Of a stretch of DNA of 37,472 bases, positions 30,323 to 37,398 are shown in pieces; positions within the stretch are counted from its first letter, which is position 1; every line of letters starts with the position of its first letter. Source of the stretch: Bryobacterales bacterium (GTDB taxonomy: Bacteria; Acidobacteriota; Terriglobia; Bryobacterales; Bryobacteraceae); the NCBI GenBank assembly GCA_003167275.1, contig PMTT01000161.1:1-37472 (forward strand). The letters are read 5' to 3'. The notes under the pieces were generated by a model. That model was not told where the DNA came from. It did no database searches and was given only the letters and a program-made list of their open reading frames with translations. The translations under genes were made by a program, and so were the position numbers.

Positions 30323-31063
30323 ATGGCGATAGGCGGACCGGTCCCAGAAGATAAGCCGGCGCACCGAAAGAGCCGGTTGGCGACGGGGCCGGAAACCAGC
30401 GAGTTTCTTCTGCACCTCAGCCACGATCTGCGGGCGTCGCTTCGCGCCATTCGCGTGAATGCTGAGATGCTCGTCAGAGAGTTGAAATCGGGCGAGACCG
30501 CCAACTGTGGACCACACCTGAACGTCATTGTGTCGGACACCGAAAGAATCGAGTCACTCGCGAACGGCCTGGCCAACTATGCCATCGCCTGTCAGATCGC
30601 CGAGGATTCTTTTGTGATCATTTCGGTGGAGACCTTGGTTCGCAAAGTGGTGGCCAGGCTGGCCCAGGAACTACGGGACAACAGCGCTGTGGTGACATAC
30701 GGGGCCTTGCCGCGGATTCGTTGCGAGCCGGACCGGATCGGACACCTTTTCGAAAATCTGATTCGCAACGCCCTGGTTCACCGCCATTCGGCGGCTCCAC
30801 GGATCCATATCGCCGCGGAGGGACAAGGCGACGGATGGCTGTTTAGCGTTCACGACAATGGCCCCGGTATCGAATCCGGATATCTGGAACGTGTTTTTGA
30901 GCCCTTCGAGCGTCTGCGCGGACAGCAAGCCGCGGGACCAGGTCTGGGCCTCGCGATTTGTTGGGAGATTGTGGCGCGGCACGGTGGCAGGATATGGGCC
31001 GAATCGGAGCCCGGACATGGCGCGACGTTCTTCTTCACGGTTCCTGGAGAGCCGCGGGCGTAA
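30323..31063 (+). CDS. Small cytoplasmic sensor histidine kinase
   Basis: A 246-residue kinase core with no sensor or membrane segment. The H-box is LLHLSHDLRASLRAI (His34), resembling the HisKA of phytochrome-type kinases. The N-box (NLIRNALVHR), G1 (VHDNGPGIESG), F-box (FEPFERL) and G2 (GPGLGLAICWEIV) of the HATPase follow. The short N-terminus means that input must come from a partner protein or that the gene is truncated. No response regulator is adjacent; the nearest receiver gene (32064) is in another operon on the other strand. The start is ATG 30323, with AAAGG immediately before it. Confidence 0.85.
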   Translation: MAIGGPVPEDKPAHRKSRLATGPETSEFLLHLSHDLRASLRAIRVNAEMLVRELKSGETANCGPHLNVIVSDTERIESLANGLANYAIACQIAEDSFVIISVETLVRKVVARLAQELRDNSAVVTYGALPRIRCEPDRIGHLFENLIRNALVHRHSAAPRIHIAAEGQGDGWLFSVHDNGPGIESGYLERVFEPFERLRGQQAAGPGLGLAICWEIVARHGGRIWAESEPGHGATFFFTVPGEPRA

Positions 31064-31158: not shown

Positions 31159-31449
31159 ATGGCGCACATGATTCCCCAAGAACCGCGGACTAAGCGGATC
31201 AACCTCCGGGCAACGCCTTACCAGGAGAGATTGATTCGCGCCGGAGCCGTGCGGCGAGGCGAGAATCTGTCGGATTTCATTCTGGAAAGCGCCTGCACGA
31301 GAGCAGAGGAAGCAATCTCCGATCAAGTGCATTTCATCGCATCGGAGGCACAGTGGAAAGCCTTCACGAAGGCCCTCGATGCACCTCCGCGCGTCCTGCC
31401 TAAATTGAAGCGCCTTCTCTCGAAGCCCTCGCTTGCCGAAAGCCGGTGA
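31159..31449 (+). CDS. DUF1778 antitoxin (TacA-like, ribbon-helix-helix)
   Basis: A 96-residue protein starting at ATG 31159, with AAGGA six bases upstream. TKRINLRATPYQERLIRAGAVRRGENLSDFILESA is the ribbon-helix-helix domain of DUF1778. The C-terminal part (VHFIASEAQWKAFTKALDAPP) is the usual toxin-neutralising peptide of TacA antitoxins. It overlaps the acetyltransferase toxin gene by TGATG. It should repress its own promoter together with the toxin. Confidence 0.92.
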   Translation: MAHMIPQEPRTKRINLRATPYQERLIRAGAVRRGENLSDFILESACTRAEEAISDQVHFIASEAQWKAFTKALDAPPRVLPKLKRLLSKPSLAESR

Positions 31450-31967
31450 TGGTTTTCGAGTTCGTCATCGAAAAGCTCGGGGCCGTCCACGATGCGAGGG
31501 AGTTCGACTGCGGCCTCGAGTCCATGACGACGTGGATCAAGCGCTACGCGCTCGCAAGCAAACAAAGCGACATCACGCAAACCTACGTACTCCATCGGCA
31601 ACAAGACAACCAAATCATCGGCTATTACGCCCTTTCAGCAGGAGATGTGAATCGGGAAGCGGCTCCCGAACGGATTGCGAAGGGAATGCCCAATTACCCC
31701 ATTGGCGTGATCGTGCTTACGCGGCTGGCAATCGATACCCGCTTTCATGGCCGGGGGCTTGCGGCAACGCTGCTACTGGATGCATTTACCCGCGTGGAGC
31801 GGGCCGCCAATATCGTAGGCGTCCGCGCCTTGTTCGTCCACGCTATCAATGATAGGGCGCGCGAGTTCTACTTGCACCAAGGCTTTACTCCATCACCGAT
31901 AGAGCCTCTGCACCTGATGCTTGCGATGAAGGATATACGAGCCACATTGAAGGCGCAGAAGACTTAA
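31449..31967 (+). CDS. GNAT acetyltransferase toxin (TacT-like)
   Basis: About 172 residues from ATG 31449 (the track's GTG 31446 adds one residue). It is a GNAT fold with the acetyl-CoA loop RLAIDTRFHGRGLAATLLLDA (R/Q-x-x-G-x-G/A). LGAVHDAREFDCGLESMTTWI at the N-terminus and AREFYLHQGFTP, containing the catalytic Tyr, at the C-terminus are typical of TacT. These toxins acetylate the amino group of aminoacyl-tRNA and block translation; the preferred tRNA is unknown. Gene order and a one-base overlap with DUF1778 make the pairing secure. Confidence 0.92.
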   Translation: MVFEFVIEKLGAVHDAREFDCGLESMTTWIKRYALASKQSDITQTYVLHRQQDNQIIGYYALSAGDVNREAAPERIAKGMPNYPIGVIVLTRLAIDTRFHGRGLAATLLLDAFTRVERAANIVGVRALFVHAINDRAREFYLHQGFTPSPIEPLHLMLAMKDIRATLKAQKT

Positions 31968-32063: not shown

Positions 32064-32510
32064 TCATGCGCCCGCTAGTCCAGTCTCCACCAGCAGTTCC
32101 TTGAGCATGAAGCCGATCCTCAGGAACTCGTCAAAATCGGGTGGCTTGATGATGTAGCGGCCGATCCCGTACTGCTCGACCCGGGCCCGCTCTCGTGGCG
32201 ACCCGGAGGACGTTACAATCGCGACCGGCACTTGAGAAAATGCCCCGGTGGCGCGCATCGCCTGCAGTACTTCGACGCCATCGTTCTTCGGTAGGTTCAA
32301 GTCCAGCACGGCGAGATCGGGCGCGGAGGCGCCGGCATTCGTTTCCAGCCTGCTCAGGAAGGAAAGCGCTTCGGCTCCGTCCTCCAGCACGATCAGATCG
32401 CAATCGAGCTGCGCACTGGTGAGCGCTCGGCGCAACAGTTCCACGTCGGCTGCATTGTCTTCGATCAGCAGGATGCGCACTTTGCGGACGCCTGGTCGCT
32501 CATCAGTCAT
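32064..32510 (-). CDS. Stand-alone response regulator receiver (Rcp1-like)
   Basis: A 148-residue single receiver domain with no output domain. The acidic pair is in ILLIEDNAADVELL (Glu17, Asp18), the phospho-acceptor is Asp70 in LAVLDLNLPKNDG, the switch Thr is in VAIVTSSGS, and the conserved Lys in YIIKPPDF. The NLPKNDG form is typical of Rcp1-type regulators paired with phytochrome-like kinases. It overlaps the 3' end of the kinase gene 32503-34803 and is surely its partner. With no DNA-binding domain, it should act by protein contact or as a phosphate shuttle. Confidence 0.92.
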   Translation of the reverse strand: MTDERPGVRKVRILLIEDNAADVELLRRALTSAQLDCDLIVLEDGAEALSFLSRLETNAGASAPDLAVLDLNLPKNDGVEVLQAMRATGAFSQVPVAIVTSSGSPRERARVEQYGIGRYIIKPPDFDEFLRIGFMLKELLVETGLAGA

Positions 32511-34803
32511 CGGTTTCCCCTTTGAAATGGGCTTGCTCGCCCGGCAGTGTGAAGAAGAAGGTGGCGCCGCGGCCCACCTCTGACTCGACCCAGATACGGC
32601 CGTGATATCGTTCGACTACGCGCTGGCAGATCGCCAGGCCGATTCCCGTCCCGGGAATCTTCTTGCCATGCAGGCGCTTGAAGATGCCGAATATTTTGGC
32701 GTGATATTGCGGATCGATTCCCATGCCATTGTCGGCCACGCGAAACCGAAACTGGCCGCCCTCCGCCTGGCAGGAGATACGGACTCGCGGTAGGCTATCG
32801 CCTCGATACTTGATCGCGTTGCCGATCAGGTTCTGAAAGAGCTGGACAAAATGGCCGCTGTAGCCCGAAATCACGGGCAGGTCGTCAGCGGCGATCTCCG
32901 CTCCGGTCTCCTCGGCCGAAACTTTGAGATTCTGCCGGACGCTGGCGAGCACGAGATTGAGATCGACTCTCTCAATGGGTTCGTCTGGCTCGCCTCCGAC
33001 TTCGCTGTATGCCAACAGGTCGGCAAGCAGGCTCCGCATCCGCATGGCCGCGTCCACGATCGTGCCAACGAACATTTTCATGTCGCCATCGGGCGGGGCG
33101 GGCATCGCCCGGACCAGAAGCTGGACGTAAGTGGTGATCATGCGTAACGGCTCCTGAAGGTCGTGGCTGGCGGCGAAGGCGAAGCCGGCGAGGTCTTCGT
33201 TGGAGCGCGCCAGGCGTTCGTTCGACTTTCGGAGGTCGGCATTGATGCGGACCACCTCGGCCTCCGCGTTCTTGAGAGCGGTCAGGTCGGCGACGTCGGC
33301 CACCCAACCACTGACTGCGCCGTTGGGGTCGTAGGTGGGGACGTACACGGCACGAATCCATCGTGGACCGATCGAAGCGAAGTTGACCTGCTCCTCGTAT
33401 TCCACCCGTTCACCGGCGAGGACCCGCTCGACGTGGGGCTTGATGGCGGCCAGCGCCTGGAGCCCGATGACATCCTCAATCGACCGGCCGGCGAAAGCTT
33501 GCGGGGTGGTCCCCAGCCACTCCGCGTAGCGGCGGCTGACCCAAATGTATTTCAGGTCCCGGCTGCAGTGCGTGACAGCGGGCGCCATGGTATCGGTGAC
33601 CAATTGCAGTTGCTCCCGCGCCGAGCGCAATTCCTGTTCCGCGAGCCGCCGTTCGGTAATATCGCGGAAGATGAGCACCACCCCAACCAGATTGCCGCGG
33701 TGGTCGCGGATGGGAGCGGCGCTGTCATCGATGGGAACCTCGGCGCCATCGCGGGCGACCAGCGCGGTGTGGTTCGCGAGACCGACGACCGTACCTTCGC
33801 GCAAGGCGCGCGTGACGGGGTTCTCCACCGGAAGGCGGGTCTGCTCGTTCACCAGGTGCAGGACCTCATCCACCGGGCGGCCCGCGATTTCACTCTCGGC
33901 ACAACGCATCAATTGGCAGGCCATCGGGTTCGCGAATACGACTTTTCCTACCGCATCGGTGGAGATCACCCCCTCGCCGATGCTGGCGAGAGTGGTTCTC
34001 AGCAAGTCGCGGGCGGACTGCGCCTCCGTGAGGGCGTTTTCGCGGGCCACCAGCGCCTGCCGGAGTTCCTGGTCGCGGAATTGAATCCCGGCCAGCATCG
34101 AGTTGAAGGCGTCCACCAGAACGCCCAATTCATCCCGCGACAGCTTTTGCGCGCGGATGCTATAGTCTCGCGTTTCGGAGACGGTCGCGGTGGTGCGCGC
34201 GAGCTCGGAAATCGGAGTGGCGATCAATTCCCGAAGATTCGACGAAAGCAGAAACGCCACGAAGCAGGAGGCCAGCAGAATCCCCAGGACGGTAGCGCCG
34301 TGGATCCTCATGCGCTCGTTGAGCTCGTCCAGATCGTACAGCAGCACGAATGTCCCAATCGGCCGGCGGGCCAGAACGATGGCTCGGGAGACGGTGATGT
34401 CGTGGGCGTTGAAGTGCACGCCGTCCGCATCTCCCGGCGGTGGGCAGTGGGCATCCACGTCCGGGCGCGAGTATTGGGCGAACGTCTGCCCGTCGGGTCG
34501 ATACACGCAAGCGGTGACGACGTGCGCCCGCGCCCGCAAGGCGGTGAGGGTTTGCAGGGCGGACTCCGGATCCTCGAACAGGAGGGCCGCCGTGGTGTTG
34601 TCCGTTGTAATCTGAGCGAGCGCGGTGAGGTCGCGTTCCAGGTGCTGGCGATAGAGGATCGAGTCGGAAGCCACCAGGGCGAGGCCTGAGGTGGCGAGCG
34701 AGGCGGCAGTGACCGACATGATGATCACCATCAGCTTGCGTTTGATGGGCATGTCCGCGAAGGCTCGCGGATGGGGCGGCTCTTGAGACGAGCTATTTTT
34801 CAA
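32503..34803 (-). CDS. Membrane sensor histidine kinase: CHASE8-HAMP-PAS-PAS-HisKA-HATPase
   Basis: A 766-residue kinase. The order is a membrane segment (~25-48), a periplasmic CHASE8-type domain (ITTDNTTAALLFEDPESALQTL..ACVYRPDG, ~50-165), a second membrane segment (~170-188), and HAMP (ATPISELARTTATVSE). Two PAS domains (~275-390 and ~400-520), HisKA with FAFAASHDLQEPLRMI (His547) and an HATPase (NLIGNAIKYRG, DNGMGID, GTGIGLAIC) follow. CHASE8 is also the periplasmic domain of the YfiN/DgcN cyclase, which YfiR controls; here a YfiR-like gene lies just upstream and overlaps by 11 bp. The start is TTG 34803 with GAGG upstream; ATG 34752 is the alternative. The receiver gene overlaps its 3' end. 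Confidence 0.9.
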   Translation of the reverse strand: MKNSSSQEPPHPRAFADMPIKRKLMVIIMSVTAASLATSGLALVASDSILYRQHLERDLTALAQITTDNTTAALLFEDPESALQTLTALRARAHVVTACVYRPDGQTFAQYSRPDVDAHCPPPGDADGVHFNAHDITVSRAIVLARRPIGTFVLLYDLDELNERMRIHGATVLGILLASCFVAFLLSSNLRELIATPISELARTTATVSETRDYSIRAQKLSRDELGVLVDAFNSMLAGIQFRDQELRQALVARENALTEAQSARDLLRTTLASIGEGVISTDAVGKVVFANPMACQLMRCAESEIAGRPVDEVLHLVNEQTRLPVENPVTRALREGTVVGLANHTALVARDGAEVPIDDSAAPIRDHRGNLVGVVLIFRDITERRLAEQELRSAREQLQLVTDTMAPAVTHCSRDLKYIWVSRRYAEWLGTTPQAFAGRSIEDVIGLQALAAIKPHVERVLAGERVEYEEQVNFASIGPRWIRAVYVPTYDPNGAVSGWVADVADLTALKNAEAEVVRINADLRKSNERLARSNEDLAGFAFAASHDLQEPLRMITTYVQLLVRAMPAPPDGDMKMFVGTIVDAAMRMRSLLADLLAYSEVGGEPDEPIERVDLNLVLASVRQNLKVSAEETGAEIAADDLPVISGYSGHFVQLFQNLIGNAIKYRGDSLPRVRISCQAEGGQFRFRVADNGMGIDPQYHAKIFGIFKRLHGKKIPGTGIGLAICQRVVERYHGRIWVESEVGRGATFFFTLPGEQAHFKGETDD

Positions 34804-35389
34804 CGGACCTCGCCACGCTCAGCAGTTTGGAGCTGATTCTAAGCCCGGCTTTAGCAGCCGCGGACTGGTTGATGTCGAACCGCACGCGGCGGTTTTCCAG
34901 CATGAACGCGATCATACCCCCTTCGCGCAGAAACCTGGCTCCCTCGCCCACGGTGAGCACGCCGGGCCCCATGCCCGCCAACACTTTCGGAAGGTCCTTT
35001 TCCGATCCGCCGGCAAAGACGATCTGGCACGAAGCCGGCGTCTGGCGAACGATTCTTTGAATCTCGATCTTGCGGCCGTTGACACTCTCTCCTTCCACCG
35101 TGCGGTCCAGGGCCCGGCCGAAAGGGTCGTCGCCCAGGACGCATATGGAGAACGGCCCGTCAGCGGCGGCGAAAGCGGCCGGCGGCCATTCAATGAACCT
35201 GGTGAAGTTCAACAGGAAGGCGGCTTTCACCTCATACTCAAGGGGCGGTTGAACATCGGCCGCGGATCCACCGATTGAGGTGAGTACCAGGAGCAGGCAC
35301 ACGGGGAGCGCAGGATTCGGCCGCTGATTAAGCCGGCCGAAAGACCATTTGGCATGCGCTGCTTCCATGCTTCCGCTTGTTCGGATCAT
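34793..35389 (-). CDS. YfiR-family periplasmic regulator (DUF4154)
   Basis: About 198 residues with a signal sequence (LPVCLLLVLTSIGGSAADV). Then comes the YfiR signature: LEYEVKAAFLLNFTRFIEWPP, FSICVLGDDPFGRALD, RQTPASCQIVFAGGSE, VLTVGEGARFLREGGMIAFM and VRFDINQSAAAKAGLRISSKLLSVA. In Pseudomonas, YfiR binds the periplasmic domain of YfiN and represses it until the outer-membrane partner YfiB titrates YfiR away. The start at ATG 35389 overlaps the receptor stop as ATGA; an internal ATG (MEAAHAKW) is an alternative. The target here should be the CHASE8 kinase encoded next. Confidence 0.9.
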   Translation of the reverse strand: MIRTSGSMEAAHAKWSFGRLNQRPNPALPVCLLLVLTSIGGSAADVQPPLEYEVKAAFLLNFTRFIEWPPAAFAAADGPFSICVLGDDPFGRALDRTVEGESVNGRKIEIQRIVRQTPASCQIVFAGGSEKDLPKVLAGMGPGVLTVGEGARFLREGGMIAFMLENRRVRFDINQSAAAKAGLRISSKLLSVARSVEK

Positions 35390-37398
35390 TTCATCCAGGT
35401 GATTTTCACGTAGCCGCTTCTCCGGATGCCGACCAGCGGGCCGGGATCGCCGGCGGCTTCCACATGCCAGGGCTGCATCAGGTTCCTTCCCACGAAAGAC
35501 AGCTCCAATTCCCGGCTCACCCGCCAGGCGAGCCGCGCATCGCCCGTGGAATACGCCGCCACCTGCTGTTCCGGCAAGGCGCTGACATATCGATAAACCA
35601 AGTCCAGTTGCAGCTTTTTCGACAGGTCGAAGGCTGATTGGATGGTGACCTGGTGCTGCGGGCTGGATCCTTCGATAATCGGCCCGGTGCCCACATCACC
35701 GCTGTTGGGGGCTTTTTCCAGGTTCATATGCAGGTAGGAGTATGACCCGCGCAGCCGCCAGAAGGTCGTGGGCCTCCACTCGGGCGCTATTTCCACTCCC
35801 TTAGTGTTCCCGAGGAGACCGTTGCGAAACTGGGCCGGCAGCAATAGATGGGTGGGAGCCGGCGTAGTCTCGAGGAACGTCGGCCCTGCAAACTCCTCGT
35901 CGAAAAGATCGTGATAGTGGTTGTAGTACGAGGCCACGTCGACGTACACCTTCGGTCCGATCAGCCGGCGATACCCCAGTTCATAGCCGTTGAGCTGTTC
36001 CGGGGCGAAATTCTTGTTGGCGTTGAATCGCGCGAAGTAGGGCACGCCGCCGGCCGTGGTAGTGATGTATCCCGTAAGGTTAAAGTCCTCTTCGGCGCGG
36101 GATGGGGTTCGCAGGGCGTGCGTATAGGAGGCCCAGAAGGTCTGTCCTTCCGAGGGCGTCCACAGCAGGCGCACGCTTGGCTCCAGGCCAAAACCAGTGA
36201 AATTGGTGTGCAGCAGCTTGGTGCCGAGCGTCAAGGACAGGCGGCGATCCACCAGGCCGATCTCGTCCTGAAAGAATCCGGTCAAGAGTTGGTCGGTGCG
36301 TTGGACGGGATCGAACGTGAGACCGGACACCACCTCCGGGGCATTGCCGGCGCTGAAGCGCGCTCCCAGGCCCCAGGTAAGCTGCTGGCGGGCGATCCAA
36401 CGGTGGCGCTGCAGGTAATCGATATCGAAGGTATCGCGGGTCTCGGCGAAATTCGCTTCATGGCGATTGGTCCGGTCGTAGTAGGCCTGGATTTGAATGT
36501 CGTTGCCGCCTCCGAGATCCCTGGTCCAGCGCGCCAGGAGGTTGCCACCGGAGAGGGCGGCATTGGCGTCTACGTTTTGGGAATACGGCGGAGTATAGCT
36601 GGTGGCCGTGACCCGCTCGCCGGCTGATTCGTCGTAGAGATCGCCCTGCACAGTGATGCTGTCGCGGGCATCCTTGTCCCAGTCGACGCGAAAGCCGGCC
36701 TGTGCGGCACGCCAATCGTCGAAGCTCTTGCCGTCCGGATGCTCCTCGGGACCTCTGGTGAAGCCCTTGCCATAGAATCGGTAGTTCAGATCTCGCCCGT
36801 TGCCTCCGCCGTAACGGAAGCTCCCAAACCCCTGCTCCTCGTTGCCGGTTCCGGCCGATGCCAGTGTTCCGTGCGTGTCCTTTGTATGCTTGGTGATGAT
36901 GCTGATTACGCCATTCACGGCGTTCGGTCCCCAGATGGTGCCGCCCGGCCCGCGGATCACCTCGATCCGGTCGATGTCGTCCATCACCGTGTCCTGGACC
37001 TCCCAATAGGTGCCGGCGAAAAAGGTGGTGTAGACGGTTCGCCCATCGATCAGCACCAGCACGGAGCGTGACAGGCGGCTTCCAAAACCGCGAATCCCGA
37101 TGGACCACTTGTTGCCATCGATGCGCGCCACCTCCACACCGGGCGCAAGTCGCAAGGCCTCCGGGATGCTGGTAGCGCCGGAACGGCGGATTTCGTCGCC
37201 TGTAATTACGTAGATCGCCGTAGGTGAGTGTGAAGCCTGCTCGGGAGTCTTGGACGGCGTAGTCACTTCGATTTTGGAGAGTTCTTCCAGGCTCAGAGAC
37301 TTGAGCGCGGAGGTGGTGTCGGGCTGCTGGGTATTGGACGCCGGGGCTTGGGCGCCCGCCACAGGCGTGAATAGAGCGAGCAGGAGCAACACGGCCAA
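35386..37398 (-). CDS. TonB-dependent outer-membrane receptor
   Basis: About 670 residues. A hydrophobic signal (VLLLLALFTPVAGAQ) is followed by a TonB-box-like segment (LSKIEVTTPSK) and the plug domain (AIYVITGDEIRRSGATSIPEAL, VLIDGRTVYT, IDRIEVIRGPGG, NAVNGVISIITK). The rest is the long beta-barrel ending GYVKITWMK. Family members import iron complexes, vitamin B12 or glycans using TonB energy; the ligand is unknown. The track start is TTG 37398; GTG 37392 has better ribosome-site spacing (AGGGA, seven bases). The frame stays open through a palindromic repeat to the window edge, so the true start may lie outside. It is the first gene of the receptor-YfiR-kinase-receiver operon, overlapping the next by ATGA. 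Confidence 0.88.
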   Translation of the reverse strand: MAVLLLLALFTPVAGAQAPASNTQQPDTTSALKSLSLEELSKIEVTTPSKTPEQASHSPTAIYVITGDEIRRSGATSIPEALRLAPGVEVARIDGNKWSIGIRGFGSRLSRSVLVLIDGRTVYTTFFAGTYWEVQDTVMDDIDRIEVIRGPGGTIWGPNAVNGVISIITKHTKDTHGTLASAGTGNEEQGFGSFRYGGGNGRDLNYRFYGKGFTRGPEEHPDGKSFDDWRAAQAGFRVDWDKDARDSITVQGDLYDESAGERVTATSYTPPYSQNVDANAALSGGNLLARWTRDLGGGNDIQIQAYYDRTNRHEANFAETRDTFDIDYLQRHRWIARQQLTWGLGARFSAGNAPEVVSGLTFDPVQRTDQLLTGFFQDEIGLVDRRLSLTLGTKLLHTNFTGFGLEPSVRLLWTPSEGQTFWASYTHALRTPSRAEEDFNLTGYITTTAGGVPYFARFNANKNFAPEQLNGYELGYRRLIGPKVYVDVASYYNHYHDLFDEEFAGPTFLETTPAPTHLLLPAQFRNGLLGNTKGVEIAPEWRPTTFWRLRGSYSYLHMNLEKAPNSGDVGTGPIIEGSSPQHQVTIQSAFDLSKKLQLDLVYRYVSALPEQQVAAYSTGDARLAWRVSRELELSFVGRNLMQPWHVEAAGDPGPLVGIRRSGYVKITWMK

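Follow-up and report, generated by a model that had tools for sequence, protein, structure and literature searches.

The closest described systems are YfiBNR (TpbB) of Pseudomonas aeruginosa and HmsCDE of Yersinia, which have in common with the locus presented here a periplasmic regulator of the DUF4154 family and a CHASE8-HAMP membrane protein. Genetic work in P. aeruginosa assigned the YfiR contact to an AAVVF motif in the periplasmic domain of YfiN and to a hydrophobic patch around YfiR Phe162 (PMC3375315). Among distant homologues, Malone et al. (2012) also described a YfiR-YfiN[PAS/HAMP] core with a sensor-kinase output, the same pairing of YfiR with a CHASE8 kinase as is found here; their Fig. 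S5 strain list includes Acidobacteria bacterium Ellin345, and TonB receptors have 0 occurrences in the main text (PMC3375315). The kinase-output Yfi core is thus not new, having been published in 2012 and being covered by three NCBIfam models. A literature search for a TonB-YfiR system, whose reach left out most subscription papers, returned no paper describing a link to a receptor.

The DNA analyzed here (the window) is an entire contig of 37,472 nucleotides from a Bryobacterales bacterium. It carries at one end four genes on the minus strand which, from the contig end inwards, encode a TonB-dependent receptor (TBDR), a YfiR-like protein, a membrane histidine kinase and a receiver. Their features are the following:

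35386..37398, minus strand: small TBDR, plug and barrel, TOL_0244-like (Pfam, NCBIfam)
37246..37305, minus strand: conserved N-terminal receptor segment LKSLSLEELSKIEVTTPSK, with a 'SLEEL' stretch and a probable TonB box, before the plug (family alignment)
34793..35389, minus strand: YfiR-like periplasmic protein, DUF4154 / NF053591 (Pfam, NCBIfam, PDB alignment)
34877..34879, minus strand: YfiR Phe171, equivalent of P. aeruginosa YfiR Phe162, the centre of the proposed YfiN-binding patch (PDB alignment)
32503..34803, minus strand: membrane histidine kinase, CHASE8-HAMP-PAS-PAS-HisKA-HATPase_c, 766 aa, TTG start (Pfam, NCBIfam, DNA)
34342..34650, minus strand: CHASE8 periplasmic domain, kinase residues 52-154 (Pfam; model pLDDT 95)
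34576..34590, minus strand: AALLF, kinase residues 72-76, matching YfiN AAVVF, the proposed YfiR docking site (alignment, model)
32064..32510, minus strand: stand-alone Rcp1-like receiver, predicted phosphoacceptor Asp70 (Pfam, PDB sequence comparison)

An earlier, sequence-only reading had described four genes overlapping by 4 to 11 bp in the order receptor, YfiR, kinase, receiver. All four reading frames and their overlaps were read in the DNA, and the observation of a four-gene operon is confirmed: receptor and YfiR genes share 4 bp (ATGA), YfiR and kinase genes 11 bp at the TTG start of the kinase, and kinase and receiver genes 8 bp (ATGACTGA). Position 37398 is merely the first start codon of the receptor frame in the window, and the frame runs without a stop up to the contig end at 37472; since the window is the whole contig, the true start of the receptor, its full signal peptide and any upstream gene lie beyond view. 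At the other end, the neighbors past the receiver gene, an antitoxin/acetyltransferase pair, are on the opposite strand, so that the operon has no further member after the receiver. This pair (31159-31967, plus strand), a TacA1-like (DUF1778) antitoxin and a GNAT acetyltransferase with a 4 bp overlap, is convergent with the receiver gene and constitutes a TacAT-type toxin-antitoxin module. About 1 kb past the operon, the window also encodes a soluble histidine kinase of 246 aa (30323-31063, plus strand) that consists of HisKA and HATPase_c only, without a sensor domain.

Pfam searches matched the receptor to the Plug (2.8e-22) and barrel (6.6e-28) profiles and revealed no N-terminal STN/Secretin_N signalling domain in it, only plug and barrel. 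Against NCBIfam model NF053590 (TOL_0244 TBDR) it scored 609.5 bits over its full length, narrowly under the cut-off of 645, yet it is linked to YfiR as true members are. YfiR matched DUF4154 (YfiR/HmsC-like) at 1.1e-42 and exceeded the cut-off of NF053591 (TOL_0243 YfiR-like; 155.7 bits against 125), as the kinase did for NF053592 ('HK near YfiR-like'; 210.6 bits against 194). The three models, which all three proteins match, YfiR and the kinase above the curated cut-offs and the receptor below, supply names rather than a described mechanism; they do not include the receiver, and the kinase is explicitly named as YfiR-associated.

In the kinase, Pfam identified CHASE8 (1.3e-15), HAMP, two PAS folds, HisKA and HATPase_c. 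The phosphoacceptor motif SHDLQEPLR is at residue 546, and N and G boxes are present. The CHASE8 region was modelled with a pLDDT of 95 as one sensor domain of the PDC/Cache type, carried by a long membrane helix, and Foldseek matched this model to the sensor domains of WalK, CitA and DctB. Profile and model thus agree with the earlier claim that the periplasmic domain of the kinase is CHASE8-like. Matches of the kinase N-terminus to WD40 structures in the PDB were dismissed as chance local matches, no stretch passing alone.

The docking motif and the hydrophobic patch known from YfiBNR are conserved in the operon. The AlphaFold2 model of YfiR has a pLDDT of 94.8, and the position of Phe171 is occupied by Phe in 75% and by Leu in 15% of relatives, the patch being hydrophobic. 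On the kinase side, the long periplasmic helix of the model terminates at AALLF, which would make this motif the membrane-distal tip of the domain. Because AALLF and Phe171 are both present and the Phe of the motif (Phe76) is retained in 98% of 142 loci, this conservation supports, by analogy with P. aeruginosa, docking of YfiR on the CHASE8 domain of the kinase.

The source genome (11.5 Mb) contains three YfiR genes and 48 plug proteins. Each of the three YfiR genes has a TBDR gene directly upstream and a CHASE8 kinase gene directly downstream, and the receptors adjoining them rank first to third among all plug matches in this genome. With about 10,000 genes and a probability near 0.003 that one given upstream neighbor is a TBDR, we estimate the chance of three out of three at about 1 in 10^7-10^8. 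The arrangement of receptor, YfiR and kinase is not due to chance.

The genes are also linked in other genomes, as the sequence-only reading had anticipated. We sampled 297 genomes of the same phylum, of which 65 contain YfiR, and examined 84 YfiR genes in the loci fetched; a CHASE8 protein was adjacent in 77/84 loci and a TBDR in 68/84, leaving 16/84 YfiR-CHASE8 pairs without a TBDR of the TOL_0244 kind. When counted from the receptor, 32 of the 35 TOL_0244-type receptors in this phylum adjoin YfiR, and two of the three exceptions lie no more than 500 bp from the end of a contig. A scan across GTDB that used the receptor alone as its anchor, and was not conditioned on YfiR, gave 80 loci, 75 of them informative; YfiR was adjacent or in the locus in 67/75 and not nearby in 8/75. 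By record title, these loci come from Gemmatimonadota, Verrucomicrobiota, Bacteroidota, Nitrospirota, Nitrospinota, Omnitrophota, Acidobacteriota, Gamma-, Beta- and Deltaproteobacteria, and others. In the order to which Marinobacterium belongs (that of the genome of locus L178), YfiR was beside the receptor in 24/30 cases and not nearby in 6/30. In these locus counts, loci from one genus are not independent; the underlying domain calls used profiles grown from the proteins of the window on stop-to-stop reading frames, by which weak or frameshifted genes are missed. The trio also occurs on replicons of Sphingobium, Pseudoalteromonas and Caballeronia, and annotated plasmid records label its members as TonB-dependent receptor, YfiR family protein, and ATP-binding or EAL protein.

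The arrangement varies in places. In two loci (L097, L101) the order is inverted, CHASE8 kinase, YfiR, TBDR, with all three genes kept. About ten YfiR-TBDR pairs have no CHASE8 neighbor, for example those of L071, L086:5537-6088, L175, L223, L226 and L069; where such loci were scanned, the neighbors were unrelated (FMN dehydrogenase, subtilase, methyltransferase), and YfiR may act there on a partner encoded elsewhere. Hints of shared cargo beside the two sister loci in the source genome, namely FAD oxidase, cytochromes and phosphofructokinase, had no common theme, and we therefore propose no ligand.

We then compared the trees of the components through correlations of patristic distances over 103 loci with all four elements. 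YfiR and CHASE8 correlated at r=0.735 (bootstrap 0.66-0.79), with a label-shuffle maximum of 0.235. Because this value matches the odd/even split-half agreement of YfiR (0.667) and of CHASE8 (0.681) with themselves, the two agree with each other, at that resolution, no less than a single domain does with itself. The kinase core, despite being in the same polypeptide, was poorly congruent with CHASE8 (r=0.18), and likewise with YfiR (r=0.14). We rejected an alignment artefact as the cause of these low values, given that the kinase core agreed with itself at 0.86 (odd/even) and 0.79 (N/C half). Correlations with the receptor were 0.47 for YfiR and 0.51 for CHASE8; in the GTDB-wide subset they rose to 0.59 and 0.70, respectively, and the pattern was alike within the phylum of the source genome alone. 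Since the trees of YfiR, CHASE8 and the receptor agree and that of the kinase core does not, the three make up an input unit that is inherited together and kept by selection, and its outputs (kinase, hybrid kinase, GGDEF/EAL) are swappable. What linkage and congruent trees demonstrate is joint inheritance; they do not demonstrate contact.

Within the receptor, no plug-specific co-evolution with YfiR was detected: every 120-column window behaved alike, and plug and barrel did not differ. The SLEEL motif was considered as a dock specific for YfiR and rejected, as it is also retained by family members that have no YfiR close by; the LKSLSLEELSKIEVTTPSK segment marks the receptor family as such, irrespective of linkage to YfiR. 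In the source genome, a fourth small TBDR, without YfiR (L140:5903-8979, contig C99), lies directly after a gene of the REC-HD_5 (HD-GYP) type and is followed by a large kinase, perhaps another receptor-signalling arrangement.

The receiver consists of a single Response_reg domain (1e-16) with no second domain, in keeping with the earlier claim that it lacks a DNA-binding output, and is closest by sequence to Rcp1/RcpA and to a bacteriophytochrome receiver (PDB 6xvu, 1k68, 1jlk). With His and ATP-binding boxes in the kinase and the acceptor Asp and Lys in the receiver, phosphotransfer between the two is predicted from sequence. The 142 CHASE8 proteins comprise 46 kinases without a receiver, 79 with fused receivers, 10 proteins with GGDEF, often together with EAL, and 7 fragments or others. 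A stand-alone receiver follows 29/46 plain kinases and 19/79 hybrids (Fisher p=2e-5). Because stand-alone receivers favor plain kinases over hybrids, the separate receiver of the window is an unfused version of the receiver that most relatives have within the kinase itself, and the pairing of kinase and receiver proposed earlier is backed both by fusion in most relatives and by this complementary distribution. The other two copies in the source genome (L004, L005) are of the fused-receiver form. In five loci (L183, L187, L211, L034, L086) a REC-GGDEF protein, in some cases with EAL, is encoded next after the receiver, and for this reason the relay may end in c-di-GMP.

Taken together, these data lead us to propose that the operon probably encodes an envelope-spanning switch of the Yfi type, in which the TonB-dependent receptor is the outer-membrane input and the phosphorelay is the output. 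YfiR in the periplasm would dock on the membrane-distal tip of the kinase CHASE8 domain, at AALLF with Phe76, and hold the kinase in one signalling state, the off state by analogy with YfiN. Ligand binding or transport by the receptor would then draw YfiR from the CHASE8 domain, or change it there, whereupon HAMP and the PAS linker would switch the kinase. Phosphate would pass to Asp70 of the stand-alone receiver, which would act by protein contact or hand the phosphate to an unlinked partner. Binding of YfiR to CHASE8 is transferred here from the P. aeruginosa genetics, and the role of the receptor as upstream sensor is suggested by linkage, co-inheritance and its outer-membrane location. We infer the sign of control on the kinase and also the target of the receiver, which is not in the operon. 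A more far-reaching version, which we put forward tentatively, is that YfiR is captured by the periplasmic face of the receptor (the plug or the SLEEL/TonB-box segment), depending on ligand or TonB, and that this capture releases a CHASE8 protein with a freely exchangeable output, be it a kinase relay or a c-di-GMP enzyme; this would be a further general signalling route for TBDRs, with hydrocarbon sensing of the OmpS type as one instance.

Other explanations were weighed against the same data. YfiR could itself be a solute-binding sensor, the receptor merely importing the ligand and loaded or empty YfiR setting the kinase with no contact between receptor and YfiR. This would account for the co-inheritance of receptor and YfiR without a special signal in the plug, and for the YfiR-CHASE8 pairs that have no TOL_0244-type receptor; YfiR of P. 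aeruginosa does bind small molecules, vitamin B6 and L-Trp, but weakly, with a reported affinity of about 10 mM (PMC4887326), and we consider this account rather unlikely. It seems more improbable still that the receptor is a target and not a sensor, with YfiR and the kinase monitoring the envelope or redox state and the operon co-expressing a needed transporter. P. aeruginosa YfiR is redox-responsive via its cysteines (PMC4887326), and its Cys71-Cys110 pair is matched here by Cys83/Cys121. However, Cys83 is kept in just 32% of relatives, and in the PDB alignment YfiR here lacks the Cys145-Cys152 pair, which matters for folding in P. aeruginosa. Furthermore, across phyla this receptor family is retained whether the output is a kinase, a hybrid kinase or GGDEF/EAL, which suits an input better.

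Finally, receptor, YfiR and kinase might have been co-transferred as a mobile cassette in which the receptor has no signalling role. Co-transfer can yield congruent trees, and several copies are indeed on large plasmids or secondary replicons. The kinase core, however, belongs to the same cassette and does not co-vary (r 0.14-0.18, against a split-half agreement of 0.86), which argues that receptor, YfiR and CHASE8 are kept together selectively and makes hitch-hiking a very improbable explanation.

TonB-dependent receptors are mainly known to signal inwards via sigma/anti-sigma pairs. A unit of receptor, YfiR and CHASE8, found in many phyla and with varied outputs, would be a separate, modular inward route for such receptors. 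It suggests what could serve as the outer-membrane input that is missing from the many YfiB-less Yfi systems described in 2012, and for receptors that are said to detect hydrocarbons but have no known inward pathway, it offers a concrete hypothesis as to the partner. TOL_0244, the namesake of the receptor family, was up 7-fold on C28 alkane in a proteomic study and is reportedly 40.3% similar to OmpS, a receptor reported to be essential for alkane detection (PMC6304351). This similarity makes OmpS of Alcanivorax dieselolei a candidate relative of the receptor family of the operon; its gene neighborhood, looked for in the text of the literature, was not found. A paper on a regulatory TBDR of Lysobacter was set aside, having no kinase or YfiR context.

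In comparison with YfiBNR, whose output is a GGDEF diguanylate cyclase, the operon has a HisKA and HATPase_c kinase with a receiver, GGDEF versions being found in relatives. The outer-membrane partner of YfiBNR is YfiB, a lipoprotein of the OmpA/Pal type, whereas the visible part of the operon, the contig ending upstream, has a TonB-dependent receptor. The earlier proposal that this receptor stands where YfiB would be thus holds as to the presence of an outer-membrane receptor instead of YfiB, but not as to gene order, since yfiR is first in the P. aeruginosa operon and the receptor precedes YfiR here; functional equivalence of the receptor to YfiB is guesswork. As a whole, the interpretation of the locus as a phosphorelay version of YfiBNR is partly supported: linkage, the CHASE8 domain, the docking motif and the kinase-receiver pairing back it, and it is qualified by the prior publication of a kinase-type Yfi core, by the different position of YfiB, by the absence of a receptor part that co-varies specially with YfiR, and by the relatives that feed a REC-GGDEF(-EAL) protein. 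FecA-FecR-FecI and PupB-PupR likewise have an outer-membrane TonB receptor thought to report its ligand to the inner membrane. Unlike FecA-type transducers, the receptor described here has no STN domain, its operon contains no sigma/anti-sigma genes, and the bridge is a separate periplasmic protein. We conclude that the operon belongs to a variant of the Yfi switch that is widespread and already catalogued, but uncharacterised.
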